From Marinobacter bohaiensis (GTDB taxonomy: Bacteria > Pseudomonadota > Gammaproteobacteria > Pseudomonadales > Oleiphilaceae), in contig NZ_QGEH01000001.1 in NCBI RefSeq assembly GCF_003258515.1, forward strand, positions 1,240,001 to 1,304,000: 64,000 nucleotides of DNA, written 5' to 3'. The notes beneath the pieces are model-generated. The model was not told the DNA's origin, searched no databases, and saw only the letters and a program-made list of their open reading frames with translations. Each line of letters opens with the position of its first letter. Positions within the stretch are counted from its first letter, which is position 1. A program made the translations under genes and the position numbers. Of this stretch, positions 9,152 to 64,000 are shown in pieces.

Positions 9152-9856
9152 CTACCCCAGGTCGATGCCCACCTCCAGGCTGGCCCGGAAGCCCTCGGCA
9201 ACGCTGCCGGAGATGCTGGCGGTCTGGTGGGGCGCGCCGTCGCGGAACAGGAAGTCGGCGTCGACGGTCGCGACCGACCGGTTCGGCCCCCGAGGATAGA
9301 GTGGCGAGTGGTACACCGCCCGGGTGACGGCGTCGGGAAACACCAGCTGTGAGGTGGCGGTCGTGTCGCCGTGCAGGAATACCTGGAAATGAATGTGGGT
9401 GATCCGGCCCCGGTACCAGCCCGGATAGACGGTTTCGAACCGCACCCGGCCGTGCTCGTCCACCGGCTGGAGCCCGCGCATGAACGTCTGCCCGGTGGCG
9501 CTGCCATAGCCGGAATAGACGCCGTCCCGGTCGCAATGCCAGACGTAGACCGAGGCATTGCCCGAAATCGGCTGGCAGACGTGGTGGATGTCCAGCAGCG
9601 TGAAGGTCAGCTCCAGCGGAATGCCAGGGCGGCCTTCGGTGATGTCGGAGCGGGTCAGGGCATCGTTGTCGAGCTCGGCGGACAGCGGGAAGGGCCCGGC
9701 GGTTTCGCGCGGAATCAGCACGCAGCGGCCTGCTTCACCCGGATCCGCGGCGAAAGCGCGGCGCCAGCCGGTCAGGGGCGTTGCGCCTACAGCGCCCAGC
9801 AGGGCCAGCATCCGGCGACGGCTGAACGGCGCGCTCCACGATCGTTGCTTGCTCAT
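9152..9856 (-). CDS. Tat-exported intradiol dioxygenase-like protein
   Basis: A 234-residue protein with a twin-arginine type signal (SRRRMLALLGAVGATPLTGWRR, residues about 12-33) followed by an intradiol ring-cleavage dioxygenase fold. The four iron ligands of the catechol dioxygenase family can be proposed: Tyr in the WHCDRDGVYSGY region, Tyr in PGWYRGR, and the two His of ITHIHFQVF. Cytoplasmic catechol dioxygenases lack export signals, so this belongs to the exported branch, whose substrates are poorly known. It lies downstream of a two-component gene pair on the same strand, about 90 bases away, and may be co-regulated. Confidence 0.82.
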   Translation of the reverse strand: MSKQRSWSAPFSRRRMLALLGAVGATPLTGWRRAFAADPGEAGRCVLIPRETAGPFPLSAELDNDALTRSDITEGRPGIPLELTFTLLDIHHVCQPISGNASVYVWHCDRDGVYSGYGSATGQTFMRGLQPVDEHGRVRFETVYPGWYRGRITHIHFQVFLHGDTTATSQLVFPDAVTRAVYHSPLYPRGPNRSVATVDADFLFRDGAPHQTASISGSVAEGFRASLEVGIDLG

Positions 9857-9949
9857 GGCGTTGTCTCCCTTGCAGGGCGATCGACCACGGTCTGATTCCG
9901 GTGTCCTTTAACACGAGAACAAACTTGGTGACGGCGAAGCCGTCCCGGG

Positions 9950-51732: not shown

Positions 51733-52983
51733 ATGGACAAACACCTGCACTGGACCGAGCTGACCGGCGGCGACCCTCCGTTCGCCCGCCGCGATATCGT
51801 TCCCTATCGAACCCAACCTCTCTACCGCAGCCGCTGGGGCCAGGCCCATGTCAGCCGGGGGCTTCTGGCCGGTCGCGACTGGGTGATCAAGGATGTCGCC
51901 GCCAACCGGATCACTAAATTCCTCTGGGGGCGCTGGCTGTTGTCCCGGGAACATCGCGCCATGCATCGGCTGACCGGGTTGCCGGGAATGCCCGCGGAGG
52001 CCTTCCGGCTGGACCGGGACGCCCTGTGCTATCGATTCGTGGCCGGGTCCACCCTGCGCCAGTACCGCGAGGACAAAGCGCCCCTGCCGCCGGATTTCTT
52101 CCCGCAGCTGGAGGCGGCGGTCGACCAGGTGCACGGTCGTGGCGTGGTGCACATGGACCTGGGAAACACCCGCAATATCCTGGTCAGCGACGACACCGGC
52201 GAACCCCGCCTGATCGATTTCGGCTCCTGCGTGTTTACCGAGCGACTGCCGTCCCGTCTGGCTGAACGACTGCAGCGGATTGACCGCAGCCGCGTCTACA
52301 AGAGCTGGGCGAAACTGGCTCCGGACTCGTTCGATGCCGGGCGTGCCGAATACCTGGCCTCGCATTACCACCGCCATCATCTCAAACCGAAACACTGGGG
52401 TAGTCGGATGATTCGATCAATGCGAGGTTTCTTCCACAACCCGACCCTGCGCCGGGGGTTCCGCAAGACCCGGTTGCCGCTGGGGATAGCGTTTCTGGCC
52501 CTGGTGATGAGCCAGATCAGCGCCGCCTGGTTCTGGCCGGGCGCCATGGTGGCCACGGTAGGTGCCCTGTTGCAGGCCTGGTGCTTCGCCTGCATCGATA
52601 CGCAGAAAACCCTGGCGGATCGCGGTCCATACAGTCTGGTGCGCAACCCGCAGTACCTGACCCGCTTCCTGCTGATTATCGGTGTGGTGCTGATGACCGG
52701 CAATCCGTGGCTACTGGGGCTGACCGCCGTGATCTATTACTTCTATGCGGTGACGCGGGTCGAGCGGGAAGAGGCGCTGTTGCCGGAGGTCTTCGGCGCC
52801 GCCTATCGCGACTACTGCCAACGAGTGCCGCGCTTCCTGCCGCGCCTGGCCAACCTCGACGGTGAGCGGTTGCGATACTGGAACCCACAGGCTTTCCGCA
52901 AGAACCACGGCGTCACCAACCTGGCGACCGTCGCACTGTGCCTGGTGCTGTTGTATGGGTGGGCGTTTCATGTGATGGGGTAA
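51733..52983 (+). CDS. Fusion of a RIO/Kdo-kinase-like domain and an isoprenylcysteine methyltransferase-like domain
   Basis: 416 residues. The N-terminal half (about 25-215) is a protein-kinase-like domain with the ATP lysine near K53, catalytic loop VHMDLGNTRNILV (H140, D142, N148) and metal-binding IDFG (D162). The C-terminal half (about 245-416) has four or five membrane helices and the ICMT/PEMT motifs RGPYSLVRNPQY (297-308) and a later EREEALLPEVFGAAYRDY. I know both domains as separate proteins. The frame has no break between them. A role in modifying a membrane lipid or polyprenyl compound is an inference. Confidence 0.8.
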   Translation: MDKHLHWTELTGGDPPFARRDIVPYRTQPLYRSRWGQAHVSRGLLAGRDWVIKDVAANRITKFLWGRWLLSREHRAMHRLTGLPGMPAEAFRLDRDALCYRFVAGSTLRQYREDKAPLPPDFFPQLEAAVDQVHGRGVVHMDLGNTRNILVSDDTGEPRLIDFGSCVFTERLPSRLAERLQRIDRSRVYKSWAKLAPDSFDAGRAEYLASHYHRHHLKPKHWGSRMIRSMRGFFHNPTLRRGFRKTRLPLGIAFLALVMSQISAAWFWPGAMVATVGALLQAWCFACIDTQKTLADRGPYSLVRNPQYLTRFLLIIGVVLMTGNPWLLGLTAVIYYFYAVTRVEREEALLPEVFGAAYRDYCQRVPRFLPRLANLDGERLRYWNPQAFRKNHGVTNLATVALCLVLLYGWAFHVMG

Positions 52984-53328
52984 CGCGGTTGACGGGGCAG
53001 ACCCGTGATTGGCGGCTCCAGCAAGGGGAGCGAGATCATTCGGGCAACCGGGCGTATCGCTCCTTTCTTGGGACCGTTCGGTCTCTGTTGACCCTGCGAC
53101 GGATTGACCCCGGCAGACGTGTGTCAGTTTCGATGGCTCCTGCCTTGGGTCGCATGACCGCCTACGCGACCTCCACTTCGCTGCGCTAAAGAATCGGGTG
53201 GAGCGCTTCCGATAGCGTCCCGGATTCAATTGACCTGCATTCATATCTCACATTAGTCTTGATGGCTACCTCTTCGATTTTTTTGAGGTTTTTGTTGTAT
53301 AACAAGTTGAGTTACAAGGTAAAATAAT
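52984..53328. other. Intergenic region before the CobW gene
   Basis: 345 bases without a recognised gene. The first 200 bases are GC-rich; the last 100 are AT-rich and hold the probable promoter and the TTGTTGTATAACAA operator candidate of the CobW gene. A short stem ACCTC/GAGGT (about 53268-53290) brackets a T-run and could mark a terminator or leader structure. Confidence 0.4.
53292..53305. promoter_or_regulatory. Operator candidate, copy 1
   Basis: TTGTTGTATAACAA, an imperfect palindrome 24 bases before the CobW start. Its arms TTGTT and AACAA equal those of the two sites before the hydrolase operon at 55190 and 55233, which suggests binding by the same GntR-family protein. Confidence 0.55.
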
Positions 53329-54369
53329 ATGAATCTCATATCAGTGACGATCCTTACCGGCTTTCTGGGCTCCGGTAAAACCACGCTGCTCAAGCGTGTT
53401 CTCAGTGAAGCCCATGGCCAGAAAATCGCCGTCATCGAGAACGAGTTCGGTGAGGAAAACATCGACAACGATATACTGATATCCGATAGCGAAGAACAGA
53501 TTATCCAGATGAGCAATGGCTGTATCTGTTGCACCATCCGTGAGGATCTGCGCAGCACCCTGACGATGCTGGCAGCCAAAAAGCACGAGGGCCTACTCGA
53601 CTTCGACCGGATTATCATTGAAACGACGGGGGTTGCCGATCCCGGTCCGGTGGCACAGACGTTCTTCATGGATGAAGACGTGGTGGAGAGCTATGTTCTG
53701 GACTCCATCGTCACGCTGGTGGATGCTAAGCATGCGACGCAGCAACTGAACGACCGACAGGAGGTTCGCCGGCAGGTTGGGTTTGCCGACCGGATCTTTG
53801 TCAGCAAGGCCGATTTGGTGGATGCAGAGACAGTCGAAGCGCTGATTCCCAGGCTCAGAAGCATGAACCCTCGTGCGCCCGTTGAGACGGTGCATTTCGG
53901 TGAGGCGCCGCTGACCAAGGTCCTGGACCTGCAAGGCTTTAACCTGAACGCCAAGCTCGACGTGGATCCGGACTTCCTGAAAGAGGGTGACGATGCGCAT
54001 GACCACTGTGAGCACGAGCATTGCGATCATCCGTCCCATCGGCATGGCCACGGCAGTCACCACCATCATGACGACGATGTGAAGAGCTTTGTCTACAAGG
54101 CCGACCGTCCCTTCGACCCGCGCCGTCTCGAGGATTTTCTCGGTGCCGTCGTTGAAGTGCATGGGCCCAAGATGCTGCGTTACAAAGGGGTACTGGATAT
54201 GAAGGGCACGGACCGCAAGGTCATTTTCCAGGGCGTGCACCAGGTTATGGGCAGCGACCTGGGGCCGGAATGGAAACCGGACGAAGTGCGTCAGAGCAAG
54301 ATGGTCTTTATCGGAGTGGATCTGCCCAAAGAGATACTCGAAGAGGGGCTAAGCCAGTCTCTGGCTTGA
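53329..54369 (+). CDS. CobW/ZNG-type GTPase metallochaperone
   Basis: 346 residues of the G3E GTPase family. Walker A is GFLGSGKTTLL (11-21), the metal-binding CxCC motif is GCICC (C65, C67, C68), and the guanine-specificity motif is SKAD (159-162). A His-rich segment (about 224-247, with a run of four His) and a C-terminal CobW_C domain follow. Such proteins insert zinc or other metals into client enzymes. It lies just before the GntR gene and the metallohydrolase operon, with a shared operator motif, so a dedicated client in that operon is likely. Confidence 0.9.
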   Translation: MNLISVTILTGFLGSGKTTLLKRVLSEAHGQKIAVIENEFGEENIDNDILISDSEEQIIQMSNGCICCTIREDLRSTLTMLAAKKHEGLLDFDRIIIETTGVADPGPVAQTFFMDEDVVESYVLDSIVTLVDAKHATQQLNDRQEVRRQVGFADRIFVSKADLVDAETVEALIPRLRSMNPRAPVETVHFGEAPLTKVLDLQGFNLNAKLDVDPDFLKEGDDAHDHCEHEHCDHPSHRHGHGSHHHHDDDVKSFVYKADRPFDPRRLEDFLGAVVEVHGPKMLRYKGVLDMKGTDRKVIFQGVHQVMGSDLGPEWKPDEVRQSKMVFIGVDLPKEILEEGLSQSLA

Positions 54370-54416
54370 ACGGTTGGTCGACTCTTGGCTAACTAACTGA
54401 TTGAAAGTTGAAAAAT

Positions 54417-55166
54417 ATGCTAACAATGAATCGTTTACTCGACCGAAGTTCTTCCGAACCACTGTATAGCCAGATCAAGCAAATCCTGATTCATGAGATG
54501 AGGGATGTCGATAAGGTGGCTGAATTGGTCCTTACCGAAAGCACTCTGATGAAGCGTTTTCGTGTTAGCCGCGCGCCCATCCGTCAGGCTTTGAAGGAGA
54601 TGGAGGACGAGGGCTACGTCGTTCGACACCGAGCCAAAGGGACTTTTCCGGTCCGCCGCGTGAATGTGAGTCTCCCGCCCGCCCTGGAACTTGGTGGAAT
54701 CAGCCGATACCTCACCGAGCAGGGATTAAAGCCGACTTCTCGCGTTGTCAGCCTTGAAAGGGTTGAGGCACCTGAGGAAGTGGGGCAGGCGCTGGATCTC
54801 GGAGCGTCGGCGAAAATGCTTCATCTCAAGCGGATTATCTTTGTCAAAGGCACCCCGCTCGCCTGGGTTTCAACCTACCTTTACACGCCGCCGGACTTTT
54901 TCCCGGAAGTTGAAGAACTTGAGCGTTTGGGCTCCGTTTTCGGATTGATCGAAAGTGGGCTGGGGCTAAAGTTCACTCGGGGAACGCAGCACATCTGGGC
55001 GTCGGGCGCCACTCAGGAAGAGGCCGAAGCGCTTGAGGTCAGCATGGGAACCCCGGTCCTTGTCGCCGAAACCGTGATGTTCACCGATGATGGACAGCCG
55101 GGAGGGTGGCGGCGTGCGGTGCATCGCGCGGAAGACTTCAAATATTCATTCGGTCTAGGTGGTTGA
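54417..55166 (+). CDS. GntR/HutC-family regulator (UTRA domain)
   Basis: About 250 residues: an N-terminal winged helix (PLYSQIKQILIHEM, then STLMKRFRVSRAPIRQALKE) and a UTRA effector domain (about 90-245, ISRYLTEQGLKPTSRV). HutC-type regulators sense pathway intermediates. The start is uncertain: ATG 54417, ATG 54426 and TTG 54408 are all in frame, and none has a strong ribosome-binding site. The gene lies between the CobW gene and the hydrolase operon and is the obvious candidate to bind the repeated TTGTTATAACAA sites. Confidence 0.88.
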   Translation: MLTMNRLLDRSSSEPLYSQIKQILIHEMRDVDKVAELVLTESTLMKRFRVSRAPIRQALKEMEDEGYVVRHRAKGTFPVRRVNVSLPPALELGGISRYLTEQGLKPTSRVVSLERVEAPEEVGQALDLGASAKMLHLKRIIFVKGTPLAWVSTYLYTPPDFFPEVEELERLGSVFGLIESGLGLKFTRGTQHIWASGATQEEAEALEVSMGTPVLVAETVMFTDDGQPGGWRRAVHRAEDFKYSFGLGG

Positions 55167-55189
55167 CAGGCCATTTTCTGCGCAATACA

Positions 55190-55209
55190 TTGTCATAACA
55201 ATATAACAA
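55190..55209. promoter_or_regulatory. Operator candidate, copy 2
   Basis: TTGTCATAACAATATAACAA. It differs by one base from the 20-mer at 55233 and lies 24 bases after the GntR stop, upstream of the hydrolase operon. Confidence 0.65.
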
Positions 55210-55232
55210 ATGGCCAATGGGTTTCTCTCGTA

Positions 55233-55252
55233 TTGTTATAACAATATAACAA
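55233..55252. promoter_or_regulatory. Operator candidate, copy 3
   Basis: TTGTTATAACAATATAACAA, containing the perfect 12-bp palindrome TTGTTATAACAA plus a further TATAACAA. The start-to-start distance to copy 2 is 43 bases, about four helical turns, so two bound dimers would sit on the same face. Confidence 0.7.
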
Positions 55253-55371
55253 ATACTGGGAGGAAGCATTGGCCCGAACAGAACAAATAAAAAGGAGTTC
55301 TCGCTTGACTGATATGACCCTGATTTCCGCCTGGGAAATGCATGGTTTCTCCATGCTTCAAGGAGGTCGGT

Positions 55372-56433
55372 ATGTGCCTTAAACACAGCAAGGGCGCATC
55401 CGAGCCGGTTCCGCCGTTTACCTCGCTCTTTCTCGATAAGCCCTCAAACAAGTCCGCTGTTGCATCGGTCAATACCGTGCTCGGCCCGGTCGACGCCAGC
55501 CAGCTGGGCGTCACTCTGCTCAGCGAATCGTTGCTGAACGTGTTGCCCGGGGCGCAGTACGCCTACGACATCAAGATCGACCGCGCTGAAGTCTTCGAAG
55601 CACTGGAAGAAAAGCTGACGGCGTTCAAGGCAGCCGGTGGCGGAGCCATTGTCGATTCCACCGGGATGTTCCATGGGCGCGACCTGCGTTTGTACGAAGC
55701 GTTGTCGCGTGCCACGGGCGTCCACATTGTGGCGACCACGGGGCAGGGACCGGAAGCTTTGCTCGGCGGATACTTCCTGACACCGCAGACCAATCCTCCT
55801 ACCCCGTGGCCGGCGCAAAAGTTCGCCGAACTGTTCGGTCGTGAAGTGAACGATGGCATGGTCGTGCCCCGTCTGGAGCGCCGCGCTCCCGCGGGCATGA
55901 TCTGTACGGCGGTGACCGTCGAGGGCATGACGCCGACGGATGGAAGTCTGGTGCGTGGCGCCGCTCGCGCCGCAGCCGCCTACGGGGTGCCGGTTCTTAT
56001 CCGGTGCGGGTCCGATGCGCCCGCGGAACTGCAGCTGGCCGTCGACGAATCCCTCGACCCGCAACGCATTGCGATGGGCGGTATGGATCGCCGTGACGCC
56101 GTGGAAAAAGGCTGGCCCATGGACGTGGCCAATGCCGGGGCTCAGGTGTGTATCGATCACATCGGTTCGACGGACCCGCAGTACCTTGATGATTCCGAAC
56201 GGGTTGCACTGGTTCTGGAATTGATCGAGGCGGGCCATGTGGAGCGCATTGCTCTGTCCTTGAGTGCCACTGGCGTCTCTTTCGGGGAGCCGGGCAATGA
56301 CCTGCCGTACAGCAACGTATTGACGGAGTTCGTACCCATGCTCCTGGAGGCGGGCGTGTCCCGGGAACAGGTTACACAGATGCTGACCACCAACGCAGCG
56401 CGACTGCTGAGTGTAAGTGGAGACGTTAAATGA
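55372..56433 (+). CDS. Phosphotriesterase-family protein lacking all metal ligands
   Basis: 353 residues of the phosphotriesterase (PTE-like amidohydrolase) fold, aligning along its length with the next gene product. The metal ligands are all replaced: the HxH pair is S51-E-S53 in TLLSESLL, the bridging Lys is C178, the two further His are R211 and G237, and the Asp is S298. It should not bind the usual binuclear metal centre. It may stabilise, regulate or form a heteromer with the intact neighbour, or bind substrate. AGGAGG before the ATG at 55372 fixes the start. It overlaps the next gene by four bases. Confidence 0.85.
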   Translation: MCLKHSKGASEPVPPFTSLFLDKPSNKSAVASVNTVLGPVDASQLGVTLLSESLLNVLPGAQYAYDIKIDRAEVFEALEEKLTAFKAAGGGAIVDSTGMFHGRDLRLYEALSRATGVHIVATTGQGPEALLGGYFLTPQTNPPTPWPAQKFAELFGREVNDGMVVPRLERRAPAGMICTAVTVEGMTPTDGSLVRGAARAAAAYGVPVLIRCGSDAPAELQLAVDESLDPQRIAMGGMDRRDAVEKGWPMDVANAGAQVCIDHIGSTDPQYLDDSERVALVLELIEAGHVERIALSLSATGVSFGEPGNDLPYSNVLTEFVPMLLEAGVSREQVTQMLTTNAARLLSVSGDVK

Positions 56434-57404
56434 AGCGCGTAAATACAGTGCTTGGCACTATTCCGGCGGCGGAACTCGGGTTCGTTGCCGTTCACGAACA
56501 CGTTGGCTACGGCATGCCTGGCTGTGAGCTGGACAGTCGCTGGTGGAAAACGCCGGAAGAGCGATACGACGAGACCGTGCCGAAGCTGCGCGAGTTCCAC
56601 GAGAATACCCAGAAGTGGGGGGCAGCAACCTTTGTGGATGCCACCGGCATCTGCAATGGCCGCGATATCGATTACTACAAGTCCCTCTCCGCAAAGACCG
56701 GGGTGCACATTATCGCGAGTACCGGTTTTGTCGGCGGTGACACGGCCCTGCCTTTCTTCGAACGCGCCAGCGTCGAGTATCTGACCGACCAGTTCGTCCA
56801 CGAAATCACCGTCGGTATCGGCGACAGCGGCGCGAAGGCCGGGATCATTAAAGTGGGCGTCAGTCGCGGCTTCAAGATGAAGGAGCTTGACCTTCGCATT
56901 TACCGGGCCGCCGCGCGTGCCTCCAAAATCACGGGCGCGCCGATCTTCACGCACCTTGCGGTCGACTGTGAACCCGCTCTGAAGATCTTTGCCGAAGAGG
57001 GGCTGCCCTGCCACCGCGTGTTGTTCGGGCATGCCGACGATGGTGTCAGTCAAGGCAAGATCAACGAGAAAGCTCTGCTCGAGGCCGGTGGCCGAATTGG
57101 CTTCGACACCTTCGGCTATGACTCCGAGTTGCCCGATCCGCCGTTTTGGGGGCGCCCCCGCAAGGAGCGTCTCGAACACTTCCTCCGTTTCCTGAACAGC
57201 GGCCGGATCGATCAGGTCCTGGCATCGGCCGACGCGAACTGTTCGCCGCTGGGCTGGCCGGGCGTTAAGGGGCACACGGTTAACTATCTGTTCGATCAGC
57301 TGATACCCGATCTTCGCGAAGAGGGCATCGACGATGCGGTGATCGATAAGTTGTTTGTGCACAACACCGCAGAGTTCCTGACGTTGCAGCCGATCTCCGA
57401 CTAA
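56430..57404 (+). CDS. Phosphotriesterase-family metallohydrolase (putative lactonase/esterase)
   Basis: 324 residues. All six binuclear-metal ligands of the family are present: H22 and H24 in VHEHVG, K141 in IIKVG (carboxylated lysine), H175 in THL, H201 in FGHAD, and D268 in SADAN. Members hydrolyse lactones, esters or organophosphates. The start overlaps the stop of the ligand-less paralogue as ATGA. It is the most likely client for the CobW-type metallochaperone. The natural substrate cannot be read from the sequence. Confidence 0.88.
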   Translation: MKRVNTVLGTIPAAELGFVAVHEHVGYGMPGCELDSRWWKTPEERYDETVPKLREFHENTQKWGAATFVDATGICNGRDIDYYKSLSAKTGVHIIASTGFVGGDTALPFFERASVEYLTDQFVHEITVGIGDSGAKAGIIKVGVSRGFKMKELDLRIYRAAARASKITGAPIFTHLAVDCEPALKIFAEEGLPCHRVLFGHADDGVSQGKINEKALLEAGGRIGFDTFGYDSELPDPPFWGRPRKERLEHFLRFLNSGRIDQVLASADANCSPLGWPGVKGHTVNYLFDQLIPDLREEGIDDAVIDKLFVHNTAEFLTLQPISD

Positions 57405-57455
57405 ACCCCGCAAAACAAAAGCATAAAAACCGAGAAGTAATACTGGAGAAAAACA

Positions 57456-58574
57456 ATGACACCAGAAGCTTTTAAAAACCTGAATGTCGCCGTCATCGGT
57501 GCGGGTTACGCCGGTGCGACGACAGCATATGCCCTCCATCTGTTGGGGGCGAAAGTGACCGTTTACGAACAGGCGCAGGAAGTGAAAGAGGTCGGCGCCG
57601 GGATCGGGCTGCGCCCCTCAACCATGGAGCAGTTCCGCAAGCTCGGGATCTTCGATGACATCGATGCGGTGACCTCGCCGAGCGACTACTTCGAAATTCT
57701 GACGGCCCAGGGCCAGCGGATCGCCATGGAGGAATGGCCCGAGAAAGAGGCGTTCAACGCATCAACCCATTTCGTGCACCGCGGTGATTTCATTGACGTT
57801 CTGCTGGGTGTTCTGCCGGCCGATATGGTCAAGCTGAACCATCGTCTCAGCAAAGTGATCGATAACGGCGCAACCGCGACCGCCGTGTTCGAAAACGGGG
57901 AGAGCGTGGAAGCCGACCTGATCGTTGGTGCCGATGGTATTCGCTCGCAAGTGCGCCATCACCTGTTTAGCGACAAAGCGCCCGTATTTGCGGGCGAGCA
58001 TGCCTATCGAGTGGTCATCCCCGCGGCCGATACCTTTGGGTTGGTGGACGACGGGAACCTGCGCATGTACATGGGGCGCGGCACCAAGATTTACATGCTG
58101 CCGTTGCTTCATCGTAAAGAAGTGTCGTACGACGTCACGTGCCTTGCAGCCGACTCGACGCCTGCACCGGCTGCCAGCAAAGAGCATTTGCTTGAAGTCG
58201 TCGAGGGTTTTGATGAGCGCCTGGTGAAAATCACCGAAGGTCTTGATATTGACCGGGTGAACTTGCGCGCCGTCTACGATATCGATCCCATTGAGACATG
58301 GCATTCCGACTCTGTCGTTCTGGTGGGCGATGCGGCTCACGCCATGTGCCACCATCAGGGGCAAGGCGCCAACTCCGCCGTTCTCGATGCGGGCGCTCTC
58401 GCCGATTCCCTCAGAGAAGCCTTGTCCATTCCCGAAGCTCTTGCGCAATACCAAGCGAATCGCAAGCCCGTAACCGATGTACTGCAACGCGAGTCCCGTC
58501 ACGGCTGGAGCGACGACGAAATCAAGGATGTCTTCCCCAGCCAGCACGCGGGCCAACTGGGAGCACGGAGCTGA
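57456..58574 (+). CDS. FAD-dependent aromatic-type monooxygenase (group A)
   Basis: 372 residues. The FAD motif VAVIGAGYAGATTAYAL begins near residue 10, the DG motif is GADGIRSQVRHH, and the GD motif is VVLVGDAAHAMCHHQGQGAN. This is the layout of group A flavoprotein hydroxylases such as salicylate or 6-hydroxynicotinate monooxygenases, which use NAD(P)H and O2. It lies 51 bases after the lactonase-like gene and one base before the esterase gene, within the operon. It probably hydroxylates the substrate ring or decarboxylates it oxidatively. Confidence 0.88.
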   Translation: MTPEAFKNLNVAVIGAGYAGATTAYALHLLGAKVTVYEQAQEVKEVGAGIGLRPSTMEQFRKLGIFDDIDAVTSPSDYFEILTAQGQRIAMEEWPEKEAFNASTHFVHRGDFIDVLLGVLPADMVKLNHRLSKVIDNGATATAVFENGESVEADLIVGADGIRSQVRHHLFSDKAPVFAGEHAYRVVIPAADTFGLVDDGNLRMYMGRGTKIYMLPLLHRKEVSYDVTCLAADSTPAPAASKEHLLEVVEGFDERLVKITEGLDIDRVNLRAVYDIDPIETWHSDSVVLVGDAAHAMCHHQGQGANSAVLDAGALADSLREALSIPEALAQYQANRKPVTDVLQRESRHGWSDDEIKDVFPSQHAGQLGARS

Positions 58575-58575
58575 T

Positions 58576-59514
58576 ATGCCATTACATCCGACTATCGCCA
58601 AGTTCATCGCCGAGATGCCCGCACCGCCGCCCGGACCTCTCGATCCAGAAGCCATGCGAGCCGCCGATGAGAGTCACGTGGCTCCGATGGAAAAGCGGCT
58701 GCCCGTGCATTCGGTGCAGGACAAGACGGTGCCGACATCGGTGGGTGATGTCCCCGTGCGTGTTTACACGCCGACGCCGGCGGAATCCCACCCGGTACTG
58801 ATTTACTTTCACGGGGGCGCGGGCTTCCTGGGCAGCCTCAATACGCATGACCACGTCACGCGGGAGCTTGCAAACGCCACTGAATGTGTCGTCGTAGCCG
58901 TCGATTACCGCCTGGCACCTGAACACGCTTTCCCGGCGGGGCTGGACGATTGCTACGCCGTGGTTCAGTGGGTCGCCGAACACGGTACAGAGCCGGGTAA
59001 CGGACTGGGCTGGGATGGCCAGACCCTGGTGGTGGCCGGCGATAGCTCAGGCGCGAACTTTGCCGCCGCGGTGTCGGCGAAGGCGCTGGACGAGGGGCTG
59101 AATGGCATCACTCACCAAGTGCTGTACTACCCGTCGCTTGACCTCGATTTTGATGTCGAGCGCTACGAGTCATTGAAGACCAACGCGGTAGGCAACGGTT
59201 TGGAGACAGCGATGCTGAAACCATTCAATGCCTTTTATCTCGATAGTGGTGCCGACCCCGCCGATCCGCTGGTATCGCCCATCAAACGCAAAGACCTGTC
59301 AGGACTTCCGACCACGCTCGTGATCACCGCCGAGTACGATCCGCTTCGCGACGAGGGGGAAGTGTACGGTCAGAAACTCGCCGATGCCGGCGTGCCGGTG
59401 ACCGTGCACCGCTACGACTCGGCCGGGCATGGTTTTGTCCAGCATTTCTCCTGGCTGCCCGAGTTCCAAGGCGTTTTTGCCGAGACGGCCGAATTTCTGA
59501 GAGGCCAGGGATGA
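58576..59514 (+). CDS. HSL-family alpha/beta-hydrolase (carboxylesterase)
   Basis: 312 residues. The oxyanion motif is FHGGAGFLG (a variant of HGGGF), the nucleophile elbow is GDSSGAN, and the acid and His of the triad fall in AEYDPLRDEG and SAGHGFVQHF. This is the hormone-sensitive lipase family of esterases acting on short or bulky esters. No signal peptide is visible, so it is cytoplasmic. A GGAG precedes the ATG at 58576, and the gene ends in a four-base overlap with the MBL-fold gene. Confidence 0.9.
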   Translation: MPLHPTIAKFIAEMPAPPPGPLDPEAMRAADESHVAPMEKRLPVHSVQDKTVPTSVGDVPVRVYTPTPAESHPVLIYFHGGAGFLGSLNTHDHVTRELANATECVVVAVDYRLAPEHAFPAGLDDCYAVVQWVAEHGTEPGNGLGWDGQTLVVAGDSSGANFAAAVSAKALDEGLNGITHQVLYYPSLDLDFDVERYESLKTNAVGNGLETAMLKPFNAFYLDSGADPADPLVSPIKRKDLSGLPTTLVITAEYDPLRDEGEVYGQKLADAGVPVTVHRYDSAGHGFVQHFSWLPEFQGVFAETAEFLRGQG

Positions 59515-60446
59515 GTGCGGTGGATATTCATTCGCTGTACTCCGAATGGGGCCGTTTTGGTCTGTACAGCTTCTTTATCGATGGCAGCGAGCCGGCGATT
59601 GTCGACACCGGCATCGCCAGCTCCCCCGCGGGCGGGATTTCATCGGGGCTGAAAGCGCTGGGGCGCCGTATCGAGGACGTGCGCTGGATTCTCCTTACGC
59701 ATGGGCACATCGACCACATCGGCGGTGCCTATGCGCTTTGGGAAATGACCGGCCGCAAGGCCAAGGTGGTGATCCACGAGGCGGACGTTCCCTTTCTTGA
59801 GTCGCGCCGCGCGCATGTCGAGGAATACCTCGCCGCGAGGGGGCGTTACATCAACGATGGCGCGGGTGAATCCAAGGTGGCGGCCGCCTGTCTGGCAGCG
59901 ATCTCGGGTGAAATGGAGCCTCACATTGTGGTGCGAGATGGCGACGAGCTGTCGTTGGGCCCGGATGTGACCATCAAGGTCCATTCCGTGCCGGGGCACA
60001 CAGCAGGGTCCGTTGCTTACGAAGTCAAAGGGCAGGGCGACGTTTTCGTAGGCGATGCCGTACAGATTCACGGCGCTGCCAACGGTTTCCCCAGCTACGT
60101 CGATCCCGACGCCTACCGCACCAGCCTGCTGCACCTGCGCGATCAGGTCCGGCCCAGCCGCTTGTTCCTGGGGCATCCGTACCGCAGCCAGGGAGCTGAA
60201 CCGTTGGGTGTCGAACTCAATCGGGAACAGGCCGCGGAAAAAATTCAGGAGAGTCTCGATATCGAGACCCGTGTTCGTAATGCCACCGACGAGGTGGGTG
60301 TCGATGGGGCTGAAATAGCCGAAGCGCTGTGTTCGCCGTTCTGTTGTATTGCCGATTATCTGCGCTACAGCGGTGACCCGACGCTGGAACCGTCACCCTT
60401 TTTCACCACGATGCACGGCTATTTCAACAAAGGTTATCGATCATGA
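59511..60446 (+). CDS. MBL-fold metallohydrolase
   Basis: 311 residues with the metallo-beta-lactamase signature THGHIDHIGG, a second His in HSVPGHTAGS, the FVGDAVQ Asp and the FLGHPYRS His: the full binuclear zinc set. This group includes lactonases, glyoxalases and thioesterases. The C-terminal 70 residues form an added helical domain with a Cys pair (SPFCC). It overlaps both neighbours by four bases, so it is tightly coupled to the operon and may be a second metal client of the CobW GTPase. Confidence 0.88.
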   Translation: MSAVDIHSLYSEWGRFGLYSFFIDGSEPAIVDTGIASSPAGGISSGLKALGRRIEDVRWILLTHGHIDHIGGAYALWEMTGRKAKVVIHEADVPFLESRRAHVEEYLAARGRYINDGAGESKVAAACLAAISGEMEPHIVVRDGDELSLGPDVTIKVHSVPGHTAGSVAYEVKGQGDVFVGDAVQIHGAANGFPSYVDPDAYRTSLLHLRDQVRPSRLFLGHPYRSQGAEPLGVELNREQAAEKIQESLDIETRVRNATDEVGVDGAEIAEALCSPFCCIADYLRYSGDPTLEPSPFFTTMHGYFNKGYRS

Positions 60447-62140
60447 TGGTAGTTCACAAAGACCTGCGTGTCCCCATGCGTGACGGCGTTCACCTGGCTG
60501 CCGATGCCTACCATGACCAAGGGGATGAACCGCGTCCGGCGCTGGTCGCGCTGAGCCCGTACGGCAAAGAGCTGCAGGCCCTGGCGCTTACCGTTCCGCC
60601 GCAGAAACGCCCCTCTCCCTTGTGGGACGGTTGTATCGAAGCGGGTGACATTGCTCGTGTCGTCAAGGAAGGCTATGTCCACGTGATCGGTGACGTGCGC
60701 GGGTCCGGCGGTTCCGAAGGGGAGCACATCGGCAACTACAACGCCGGCGGTGTGCCCTTAGGCCAGGACGCCTACGATTTCATCGAGTGGGTGGCGGCCC
60801 AGCCCTGGTGTAACGGGGTCGTGGGCATGATTGGTATTTCGTACTTCGGCTCCATGCAAATCTTTGCGGCGTCGGAGCGCCCGCCCAGTCTTAAGGCGAT
60901 CTTCGTCAGCGGCGGCCATTTCGACTTTTACGAGACGACCTACCACGGTGGTGTCATGTGGTTCATGCCACGGGCCGCGCGTGAAGGGCGGGGCGGAGAC
61001 TCGGGCTGGGCGTTCACGCACCGGCATAAGTCCCGGATGCTCGAGGCGTATTCCGAGGAAGAGATCAAGCGGCGCGTTTCCGAACGCCTCGCCGATCCCG
61101 ATGTGGCCGCCTGGCCCAACCTGGTTCATGTACTGAACTACCCGATCCATCACGAGTCCTGGTTCGATATCATCACCAACGAAGTCGATGGTGAATGGTA
61201 CGAAGAGCAGAACCCGATCAACCTGGCCCGGAACATCGACATCCCGGTGTACCTGCAGATCAACCAGGGTCGCGGCTGGACACTGGATGGCACCATTGAG
61301 CTGTTCGACGTTCTCGATTGTCCGAAGAAGCTGGAAATCGGGCCGTATCCGCCGATGCAGACCCGGCCCTGGGTCGATGAGCATGACACGATGTTCCGCT
61401 GGTACGACTACTGGCTGAAGGGCATCGACAACGGCATCATGGATGAGCCGGCCGTCAAGGTGCATGTTGAAGGCACGCGGCATTGGGCCACCGGTGAAAA
61501 CTGGCCCGTGAAGGACGTCGAGTATCGACCGCTGTATCTGCGCGCCCGCGGCAAGCTGGCTTTCGAACCCGAGCCTTACGGCGTCGATGTTGCCCACCCG
61601 GAAGGTTTCTTTCAGGCGCCGCTCACCATTACCGACAAGGTCGAGAAGCTCTCATGGGCGACCGAACCTTTTACAAAGGTGACGTCGGTGCACGGTGTCG
61701 GTGCCGCACACCTGTTTGTCGAGATCGATCAGCCGGATACCAACCTGATTCTGCGTTTCTGGGATGAGTCGCCGTCGGGCAAGCGTCGGCTGGTGACGAC
61801 CGGGTTCCTCAAGGCGTCACACAACGAGCTGGACGAACGCACCACCGAAGGCAACCCCTACCACCCGCATACCCGCAGTGTGCCTGTCGAGCCCGGCGCC
61901 ATTAACGAATATGTCGTTCGGATCTATCCCTTTGCCAACGACTTCCTGCCCGGACACAAACTGGTTGTCGAGCTCATGTGTAACGAGCCGCTGGTCGACG
62001 ACCATAACGCGTTGCTGCCGCCGGACGCCTTCCATCTGCCCGTAGGGCGACCCGTGACTCATACGGTCTACCGAGACGCCGAACACTGGTCGCGTCTTGT
62101 GCTGCCGTTTGTGACGGCCAACGACTGGTCGGACGTTTAG
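60443..62140 (+). CDS. CocE/NonD-family hydrolase
   Basis: 565 residues: an alpha/beta-hydrolase core with the nucleophile elbow GISYFGSMQ, a helical cap (about 175-280), and a C-terminal jelly-roll domain (about 380-565, from VEYRPLYLRARGKL), as in cocaine esterase and X-Pro dipeptidyl peptidases. A catalytic His is likely in VDEHD of the core end. Such enzymes cleave aromatic or bulky esters or amides. No signal peptide is present. It overlaps the MBL gene by four bases. Confidence 0.9.
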   Translation: MMVVHKDLRVPMRDGVHLAADAYHDQGDEPRPALVALSPYGKELQALALTVPPQKRPSPLWDGCIEAGDIARVVKEGYVHVIGDVRGSGGSEGEHIGNYNAGGVPLGQDAYDFIEWVAAQPWCNGVVGMIGISYFGSMQIFAASERPPSLKAIFVSGGHFDFYETTYHGGVMWFMPRAAREGRGGDSGWAFTHRHKSRMLEAYSEEEIKRRVSERLADPDVAAWPNLVHVLNYPIHHESWFDIITNEVDGEWYEEQNPINLARNIDIPVYLQINQGRGWTLDGTIELFDVLDCPKKLEIGPYPPMQTRPWVDEHDTMFRWYDYWLKGIDNGIMDEPAVKVHVEGTRHWATGENWPVKDVEYRPLYLRARGKLAFEPEPYGVDVAHPEGFFQAPLTITDKVEKLSWATEPFTKVTSVHGVGAAHLFVEIDQPDTNLILRFWDESPSGKRRLVTTGFLKASHNELDERTTEGNPYHPHTRSVPVEPGAINEYVVRIYPFANDFLPGHKLVVELMCNEPLVDDHNALLPPDAFHLPVGRPVTHTVYRDAEHWSRLVLPFVTANDWSDV

Positions 62141-62267
62141 CGGATTGATGGGTATCTCCAAATCAAATGCATAGGTTGGAACACCGCCCAGGGCAGGGAG
62201 CCCGGGCTGCCTGAACGATGAAAGGGCGCTGGACCGCCCGGGCCCAGCCTGATGCCGGGCCTCACCG

Positions 62268-62281
62268 CAATACAATAACAA
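62268..62281. promoter_or_regulatory. Weak operator-like element before the porin gene
   Basis: CAATACAATAACAA, which shares CAATA and ATAACAA with the 20-bp sites at 55190 and 55233. It lies 15 bases before the DUF1302 start in a 156-base gap, so a secondary promoter under the same regulator is possible. Confidence 0.3.
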
Positions 62282-62296
62282 AAGGTGTATCTCACA

Positions 62297-64000
62297 ATGA
62301 CAAGCGACAAGAAGACGTTGCCACAACAGGTGGGCAACCGATATGCGTGTGCCTTTATCGCCGCCACGATGATGGCGGGAACGCCCGCCTACGCCATCGG
62401 AGATTTCGGTAAGCCGCGCATCAACTGGACCAACAACCTGCAGTACAACCTGCTGTATCGTTTGCAGGACCCGAATTCGGCTCTGTTGGCCAACCAGCCG
62501 GGGAACAAGTACAGCGCGAACGTCGATGACGGCAATGCCAGCTTCGATAAAGGCGTCGTCTCGAATCGACTGGAATTGCTGAGCGAACTGGACGTCATTT
62601 TCCAGAACGGCTGGGGCGCACGCGTCAGCGGCTTGGCCTGGTACGACACCGTCTACAACGAACGCAATGACAACCCTGGCTTTGCCGGCGGCGCGGTGCC
62701 GAACCAGACATCCGTCCCCTACAACGAGTTCACCGACGACACGCGGGACCTGCAAGGCCGTGATATCGAGCTGCGCGATGCCTTTGTGTTCGGCCGGACA
62801 ACCGTCGGCGACGCCGCTCTGCGTTTTCGCGCGGGCCAGTATGCCTCGGTGTGGGGCGAGAGCCTGTTCTTCGCCAACAACTCGATTGCCGGTGCCCAGA
62901 ACGCCTTCGATATCGACCGTCTGCTGCGTGATCCCACCGCCGAGGCGAAGGAGTTCGTTCTCCCCGTGCCCCAGGTGGGCGCCGATCTCCAGCTGACGTC
63001 CGACCTCACCTTCAGCGCCTACTACCAGTTTGGTTATGAACCCAATCGTCTCCCTGGCGTGGGCAGTTATTTCTCAAGCCAGGACCAGGGCGTCGTGGGC
63101 GCCGAAAACATGTGGATCGGCCCTGGCCAGTCCATTCCCCGAAGCGGCACGGATGAGCCGGACGACAGTGGGCAGTTCGGCTTCAAAGTGCGTTGGCGCC
63201 TGGGTTATACCGATCTCGGTTTCTACGCCCTGCGTTTCCACGACAAGTCCTACCAGCAGGTGGTTCGTCTGGGGCTGCAGCAGGTTGGCCCGAATCCAGG
63301 CGACGTAGCCGCGGTCCCCGAGGATTACTACCTGACTTACAACGAAGGAACAACCGCCTACGGCGTGAGCGTCAGCCACAGCTTCGGATCCGTCAACGTA
63401 GCGGGGGAGGCGTCCATCCGTCACAACCAGGCTCTGGCCTCCACGGGCGCCGCCGACACGTCGTCGTTCACGTCCGCACCGGCAAGTGATAACCACGATC
63501 ATCCAGCCTATGCCGTTGGCGATACCGCCCACATCAACCTGTCCACCATCTGGTCGCTGGAGCCGGGCCTGTTGTGGCAGGAAGCCACCTTCCTCGGGGA
63601 AGTGGCCTGGAACCGGCGACTGAATTGTCACGAGAACTGCGATGTGGCCCTGGACCCCAACGCGACCCGGGATGCGGTGGCCTTCCGGGCTGTTTTCGAG
63701 CCGGTCTACCGCCAGGTGATCACAGGCCTCGACCTGGGCGTTCCCGTCGGGGTGGGGTACTCGCCGAAAGGGTCACGCTCCAGCCTCGGTGCCGGATTCC
63801 CGGCCGAGAACGGCGGTGACGTCACCCTGGGCCTGAACGGCACTTACCTGAATAGCTGGCAGATCAGCCTGGCCTACACCCATTTCTACGGCCGTGACGA
63901 AGCGTTCCTGGTGGAGCGCGAGAACGATGCCAATAACCCGGCTTTCAGTTATCAGCAGTCGTTGAAAGACCGAGATTTTGCGTCGCTGACGGCCAGTCGC
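62297..64000 (+). CDS. DUF1302 family outer-membrane protein, cut by the window end
   Basis: 568 codons are present without a stop. A signal peptide ends near AYA-IG (residue 33). The mature start has the DUF1302 pattern INWTNNLQYNLLYRLQDP, then FDKGVVSNRLELLSELDV and amphipathic beta strands throughout, with FRAGQYASVWGESLFF typical of the family. Members are probable outer-membrane channels for hydrophobic compounds, often paired with DUF1329 proteins, which may follow beyond the window. It follows the CocE gene by 156 bases and probably provides substrate entry for the pathway. Confidence 0.87.
   Translation, partial: MTSDKKTLPQQVGNRYACAFIAATMMAGTPAYAIGDFGKPRINWTNNLQYNLLYRLQDPNSALLANQPGNKYSANVDDGNASFDKGVVSNRLELLSELDVIFQNGWGARVSGLAWYDTVYNERNDNPGFAGGAVPNQTSVPYNEFTDDTRDLQGRDIELRDAFVFGRTTVGDAALRFRAGQYASVWGESLFFANNSIAGAQNAFDIDRLLRDPTAEAKEFVLPVPQVGADLQLTSDLTFSAYYQFGYEPNRLPGVGSYFSSQDQGVVGAENMWIGPGQSIPRSGTDEPDDSGQFGFKVRWRLGYTDLGFYALRFHDKSYQQVVRLGLQQVGPNPGDVAAVPEDYYLTYNEGTTAYGVSVSHSFGSVNVAGEASIRHNQALASTGAADTSSFTSAPASDNHDHPAYAVGDTAHINLSTIWSLEPGLLWQEATFLGEVAWNRRLNCHENCDVALDPNATRDAVAFRAVFEPVYRQVITGLDLGVPVGVGYSPKGSRSSLGAGFPAENGGDVTLGLNGTYLNSWQISLAYTHFYGRDEAFLVERENDANNPAFSYQQSLKDRDFASLTASR

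Follow-up and report, generated by a model that had tools for sequence, protein, structure and literature searches.

Enzymes of the phosphotriesterase (PTE) family hold a binuclear metal centre through six ligands (HxH, K, H, H and D). In another family, the inactive dihydroorotase PyrC' presumably supports the complex to which it belongs. Together with a ligand-less PyrC paralogue of Zur regulons, it offers two precedents for amidohydrolase-type proteins that have lost their zinc ligands and have been kept (PMC2770081). Here we analyzed a 64,000-nucleotide stretch of the 4.76-Mb genome of Marinobacter bohaiensis (contig NZ_QGEH01000001.1, positions 1,240,001 to 1,304,000; hereafter the window), which carries a six-gene core, PTE1-PTE2-FMO-HSL-MBL-CocE. 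In contrast to the precedents, the ligand-less gene, PTE1, lies directly upstream of its competent relative, PTE2, and overlaps it. Judging from comparisons of the encoded proteins and their surroundings, the locus is probably a horizontally transferred, inducible catabolic cassette that includes PTE1 as a non-catalytic partner of PTE2.

Other described systems resemble parts of the locus. In Castellaniella defragrans, deletion of AmeABCD, a tetrapartite RND system, makes the cells less tolerant of monoterpenes and lets more dye accumulate in them when they are de-energised; real-time dye efflux is nearly equal in the mutant and the wild type, and the role proposed for the system is export or tolerance (PMC6394551). 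The window and its continuation share with AmeABCD the order of DUF1302, DUF1329/LolA-like, YCF48-like and RND genes beside catabolic genes, but here the cassette follows a hydrolase-rich rather than a monoterpene operon and adjoins only three of nine copies of the core. The isoflavone cluster ifc of Variovorax likewise has a group A flavin monooxygenase for an early ring hydroxylation and is spread in Proteobacteria; unlike the six-gene core, which encodes no such enzyme, it has an FdeC-like dioxygenase, and phosphotriesterases go without mention in the main text of that paper (PMC11069340). Compared with phosphotriesterase-like lactonases and the PTE family at large, PTE2 is alike in its six ligands, whereas PTE1 fits the family profile yet lacks every one of them. 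An earlier note on this DNA had known of no described pathway with this gene set; our literature search, which had most subscription papers and all preprints outside its reach, found no paper on it either, and the module is apparently undescribed, a novelty that we regard as provisional.

All genes of the core lie on the forward strand of the window. PTE1 (55372..56433), a PTE-family paralogue without metal ligands and a putative pseudoenzyme, is followed by the PTE-family hydrolase PTE2 (56430..57404), the group A FAD monooxygenase FMO (57456..58574), the HSL-family esterase HSL (58576..59514), which is LipP1-like but scores under the cut-off of that model, the MBL-fold hydrolase MBL (59511..60446), and the CocE/NonD (S15) alpha/beta hydrolase CocE (60443..62140). 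Four-base overlaps occur at three junctions (PTE1/PTE2, HSL/MBL and MBL/CocE), and gaps of 51 bases and 1 base separate PTE2 from FMO and FMO from HSL. The genes, families and tight spacing named in the earlier note were all found in place.

Using PTE1 or PTE2 as the query, we collected nine intact loci: that of the window and those of Marinobacterium mangrovicola (L005), Paracoccus salipaludis (L006), Caballeronia arvi (L007), Caballeronia cordobensis (L008), a metagenome-assembled genome (MAG; L009), Caballeronia insecticola (L011) and the genomes G879 (L020) and G787 (L021). The order and strand of the six genes were identical in 9/9, and the named hosts span the gamma-, alpha- and betaproteobacteria. 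This co-occurrence check bears out the earlier proposal of one conserved catabolic-type unit with a GntR/UTRA gene. The families concerned are broad and promiscuous, which would allow a chance cluster of generic hydrolases with no common pathway, but such constancy of order and strand across three classes, combined with a patchy distribution, makes that explanation very improbable.

The patchiness was evident in every collection searched. PTE1 alone as a query against the collection of genome contigs returned six loci, and only one of 72,556 plasmid records was positive, plasmid p2 of C. insecticola. A PTE2 search (E 1e-90) found five positives among 398 genomes of the family of C. arvi, namely C. 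arvi, C. cordobensis, G767 (whose coordinates are the same as those of C. insecticola p2) and the new G787 and G879, and one among 394 genomes of the family of P. salipaludis, the locus already known. Among 369 genomes of the window's class (E 1e-40) and 151 of its family (E 1e-30), PTE1 was found in the window's own genome only. Where the core is present, its proteins are alike: mean pairwise identity is 76.5% for PTE1, 90.2% for PTE2, 81.9% for FMO, 79.9% for HSL, 84.8% for MBL and 89.9% for CocE. Correlations among the identity matrices of the six proteins lie at 0.79-0.91, and every one of the six protein trees places the window next to L005. High identity across three classes together with patchy presence suggests that the core spread horizontally as one block. 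Mean identities of 76-90% per gene also suggest one kind of substrate, and the core, found in three classes of Proteobacteria, would be a portable catabolic module.

A tenth locus (L010:9180-13190), from a Rhodobacteraceae MAG, matched the core piecemeal: parts are deleted within it, and PTE2 and MBL are missing. It appears to be a degenerate copy, produced by either decay or misassembly, and is left out of every nine-locus count.

The earlier note had described PTE1 and PTE2 as a PTE-like pair of hydrolases, and for PTE1 this is not supported. In PTE2, which matches the PTE family over nearly its full length, all six ligands (His, His, Lys, His, His and Asp) are invariant in 9/9 loci. The match of PTE1 to the PTE profile spans residues 40-346 (E 1.2e-32), and the protein retains 0/6 ligands in each of the nine loci; the corresponding positions hold Ser; Ser (Ala in L006); Cys, Val or Ala; Arg; Gly (Asp in L009); and Ser (Asn in L008). 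The gene is nevertheless maintained under purifying selection, with dN/dS values of 0.084, 0.149, 0.116 and 0.113 in four pairs (simple counting). From its sequence, PTE1 looks like a conserved pseudoenzyme, a copy of the neighbouring enzyme PTE2 that appears to have lost its metal-binding site and yet to have been retained. If so, the pairing of a conserved pseudoenzyme with a live PTE would be a novelty in this much-engineered family, as far as our literature search reaches.

We also considered that PTE1 might catalyse its own step in the pathway from a new active site that uses no metal. The protein has long near-invariant stretches, and M1, C2, K4 and H5 of its N-terminal M-C-x-K-H motif, around which such a site could have formed, are present in 9/9 loci; this, and the purifying selection, would fit. 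However, among the six proteins sequence conservation is lowest in PTE1, well below that of PTE2, and we know of no PTE-family enzyme that works without its metal centre, and we consider this explanation quite unlikely. We prefer to see PTE1 as a partner of PTE2, because the two are encoded together in 9/9 loci and their genes overlap.

The remaining enzymes of the core look competent from their motifs. The Ser, Asp and His motifs of the HSL catalytic triad, the GISYFG motif of CocE and the flavin motifs of FMO (GxGxxG, DG and GD) are present in 9/9 loci, and the MBL motifs (HxHxDH, H, D and H) are complete in 8/9. The MBL protein of L020 (15065-15997) has Tyr in place of the last His of HxHxDH, the sole case among the nine. 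In FMO, residue 299 is His in 9/9 loci where solved relatives have Pro before the GQG motif.

The best matches of FMO in the PDB were tropone 2-monooxygenase (160 bits) and 6-hydroxynicotinate 3-monooxygenase (157 bits), followed by a decarboxylative vanillate hydroxylase (129 bits) and salicylate hydroxylases (122-124 bits). Guesses at a single substrate were set aside as poorly supported. For tropone or tropolone, tropone 2-monooxygenase is the best match, but 6-hydroxynicotinate 3-monooxygenase scores almost equally; for a beta-lactam, the similarity of MBL to class B3 enzymes is partial and weak; and for an isoflavone, the Variovorax cluster has an FdeC-like dioxygenase (PMC11069340).

Further clues came from the surroundings. 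A CYP199-like P450 (E 1e-50) is encoded in 8/9 carrier genomes, at most 10 kb from the operon in seven of them, and the best PDB matches of the P450 proteins of L008 and L024 are CYP199. CYP199A enzymes act on para-substituted benzoates. In M. mangrovicola the operon is followed by the P450 gene, then by a PcaR-type regulator gene on the opposite strand (L024, 3224-3976, plus strand) and PcaI-, PcaJ- and PcaF-type genes (L024, 509-3101, minus strand); all four exceed the curated cut-offs, the I and J models being those of 3-oxoacid CoA-transferases in general. The P450 in eight of nine genomes and the PcaR/PcaF-type genes beside one copy argue for an aromatic compound; the Ame-type cassette is the only pointer toward terpenoids that we found. 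The target of the cassette would be a compound with an ester or lactone bond, and probably an aromatic one.

PcaH and CatA are each present in 7/9 carrier genomes (E 1e-30). Neither was found at this threshold in M. mangrovicola or the MAG, where a draft genome and a MAG make for weak negatives, and a search of four genomes for PF00775 (E 1e-5) gave none in these two and positives in the other two. Pca-type genes without a detectable PcaH, CatA or PF00775 protein suggest that in M. mangrovicola an aromatic route arrives at 3-oxoadipate differently; the pattern could also stem from a hydroquinone/maleylacetate route or from missing sequence in the draft genome. As a speculation to which we give only a slim chance, the module and the P450 could convert an aromatic acid to 3-oxoadipate without an intradiol dioxygenase, the ring being opened by flavin oxygenation followed by lactone and ester hydrolysis, with a PTE1/PTE2 heteromer of one dead and one live subunit performing a key hydrolysis.

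Upstream of the core, on the same strand, lies a gene for a HutC-type GntR/UTRA regulator (54426..55166; GntR helix-turn-helix and UTRA domains). Its frame opens at a TTG at 54408, and the probable start is the ATG at 54426, the one fitting L005. Between it and PTE1, two candidate operators were found, operator 1 (55189..55202, ATTGTCATAACAAT) and operator 2 (55232..55245, ATTGTTATAACAAT), a perfect palindrome, both on the plus strand and both kept in L005. A promoter-like TTGACA-17-TACATT (55163..55191, plus strand) overlaps operator 1 with its second hexamer; its TTGACA is kept in L005, and the three such matches in the region are not above chance (3.5 expected in shuffles). As with HutC-type repressors, the regulator has this pair of domains and the promoter a GT-N4-AC palindrome; the palindrome here is limited to this operon genome-wide. 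With at most one mismatch, ATTGTYATRACAAT has two sites in 4.76 Mb, both ahead of PTE1, and the reversed control has none.

Within 300 bases before PTE1, the best ATTGTYATRACAAT sites have no mismatches in the window and L005 (two sites each), one in L006 and L021, and two in L009 and in L007 and L011, which lack an intact gntR; in L008 and L020 no site was found in these 300 bases. Sites with at most two mismatches are therefore present upstream of PTE1 in 5/5 gntR-bearing loci versus 2/4 gntR-less ones (both with two mismatches), where 0.003 would be expected by chance per 300 bases (mononucleotide shuffling). L009 has a further perfect copy before gntR itself, where the promoter reads TGTCATGACA. 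The palindrome largely tracks the gntR gene.

The cobW gene (53329..54369, plus strand) precedes gntR and encodes a CobW/COG0523 (YjiA-like) GTPase, a putative metallochaperone with the P-loop GFLGSGKTT, a GCICC motif, a His-rich loop and a CobW_C domain. The earlier note had it share operator-like sequences with the operon. This is only partly right: two perfect sites do precede PTE1, but in the window no ATTGTYATRACAAT site at up to four mismatches lies in the cobW promoter, which has just a similar palindrome with a different spacing. Of the other cobW promoters, that of L005 has a site with two mismatches and also reads AATGTTATAATAAT, with a putative Zur-like half, and that of L006 has no site. 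In the flanks retrieved around each locus, to which all neighbour counts refer, CobW adjoins 3/9 loci (the window, L005 and L006), so we regard it as optional and not, as had been supposed, as dedicated metal delivery belonging to the core.

These features bear on zinc sparing, in which PTE1 would be a working paralogue of PTE2 that needs no metal and serves when zinc is scarce, retained alongside a COG0523 chaperone like some PyrC, DksA and HemB paralogues, and the palindrome would be a Zur box. The core of the operator, TGTTATAACA, presumably resembles a Zur box, and the L005 cobW promoter would fit as well. COG0523 genes are often co-located with paralogues without zinc ligands, and activity is known for one such paralogue of PyrC (PMC2770081). 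However, PTE1 does not occur apart from PTE2 in any of the nine loci, six of the nine flanks have no cobW, and the site largely follows gntR, down to the gntR promoter of L009. In addition, AATGTTATAACATT, the presumed Zur form, was found in 0/32 loci, a weak negative, these being mostly the surroundings of the operon itself. We therefore consider zinc sparing improbable and favor an inducible cassette under GntR control.

The regulator and transport genes vary around the core. GntR is intact in 5/9 loci (the window, L005, L006, L009 and L021). In C. insecticola, genes for a TetR regulator, a P450, a ferredoxin and a reductase lie ahead of PTE1, and homologues of TetR, P450 and reductase, detected with L008 proteins as queries, lie ahead of it in L020. 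C. arvi has a 3' remnant of gntR (L007, approximately 9800-9861) between its P450 unit and PTE1, directly before the degenerate operator; none turned up in L008, L011 or L020. G787 has an intact gntR beside the operon and a P450 homologue (90% identical) on a separate contig. From this pattern of intact and remnant genes, GntR control is most likely ancestral and has been displaced in part of Caballeronia.

In the window, CocE is followed after 156 bases by an AmeA-like DUF1302 outer-membrane protein gene (62297..64000, plus strand), whose stop codon lies 9 bases beyond the end of the window. A check past the window for a DUF1329 gene, as the earlier note had advised, found one, followed by YCF48-like and MMPL/RND genes, and the order DUF1302, DUF1329, YCF48-like, RND/MMPL is that of the AmeABCD cassette. 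The AmeA-like gene adjoins 3/9 loci (the window, L005 and L009), all three with an RND gene, whereas in at least four others (C. cordobensis, C. insecticola, G879 and G787; L007 was outside that comparison) the core is followed by genes for a MetA-type porin and an MFS protein. The claim that the operon has its own outer-membrane channel for uptake is thus not supported, and an uptake role of DUF1302 is doubtful because the AmeABCD-type cassette is reported as an exporter. Transport genes and regulators appear to be exchangeable modules around a fixed enzyme core, which we hold to be probable as part of the same overall explanation.

An exporter tied to tolerance, such as AmeABCD (PMC6394551), would also suit a unit that serves detoxification or antibiotic inactivation instead of the use of a carbon source, its enzymes destroying a toxic ester or lactone and the Ame-type pump exporting it. 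HSL and FMO do match models of chloramphenicol hydrolase and tetracycline destructase, but distantly and far under the curated cut-offs (223 versus 500 bits for HSL and 81 versus 550 bits for FMO). The PcaR/PcaF-type genes beside L005 and the MetA-type porin/MFS genes in four loci speak for carbon use instead, and we regard detoxification as unlikely.

For the catabolic cassette that we favor, the following course can be proposed. GntR/UTRA would keep the promoter repressed until its UTRA domain captures the substrate or an intermediate. In most hosts, the CYP199-like P450 would act first, by oxidation or O-demethylation of an aromatic acid or ether, and FMO would then hydroxylate the ring. 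CocE, HSL, PTE2 and MBL would open ester, lactone or related bonds, with PTE1 paired with PTE2 as a non-catalytic partner, presumably in the way of PyrC'. In loci that have CobW, this protein may provide PTE2 and MBL with metal, and the Ame-type or porin/MFS genes may serve to move the compound or export it. Being small, the unit lends itself to expression and assay as a whole.

Several observations weigh against this reading. There are just nine loci, five of them from one family. One of the PTE1 ligand positions is Asp in L009, and the predicted structure of PTE1 has a mean pLDDT of 49.9, too poor for judging a pocket or a PTE1/PTE2 interface. The nearest solved relatives of FMO cover several chemistries. 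A search of the window's own genome found no CYP199-like P450, so the P450 step is not universal. As regards control, binding of GntR is uncertain, because the core TGTTATAACA presumably resembles a Zur box; the ATTGTYATRACAAT pattern was drawn up after viewing these same promoters; the PTE1 site of L009 is no better than those of two gntR-less loci; and the cobW promoters of the window and L006 have no ATTGTYATRACAAT site.

Some minor features of the locus complete its description. A short leader frame of 25 codons (55305..55382, plus strand) begins 67 bases ahead of PTE1 and, in another frame than PTE1, overlaps its start and stops just within it. The frame is open at the same place in 7/9 loci (the window, L005, L007, L008, L011, L020 and L021) and may serve translation coupling or be a by-product of conserved DNA. 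Inside the gap between CocE and DUF1302 lies a GC-rich near-palindrome without a T run (62194-62213). Further downstream of the Ame-type genes are a putative AraC-type open reading frame, two DLH-type hydrolases and an OYE-type reductase, which we excluded from the unit. Upstream, a single open reading frame (51733-52983) fuses a kinase-like stretch, under the Pfam cut-off, with a phospholipid methyltransferase (PEMT) domain.

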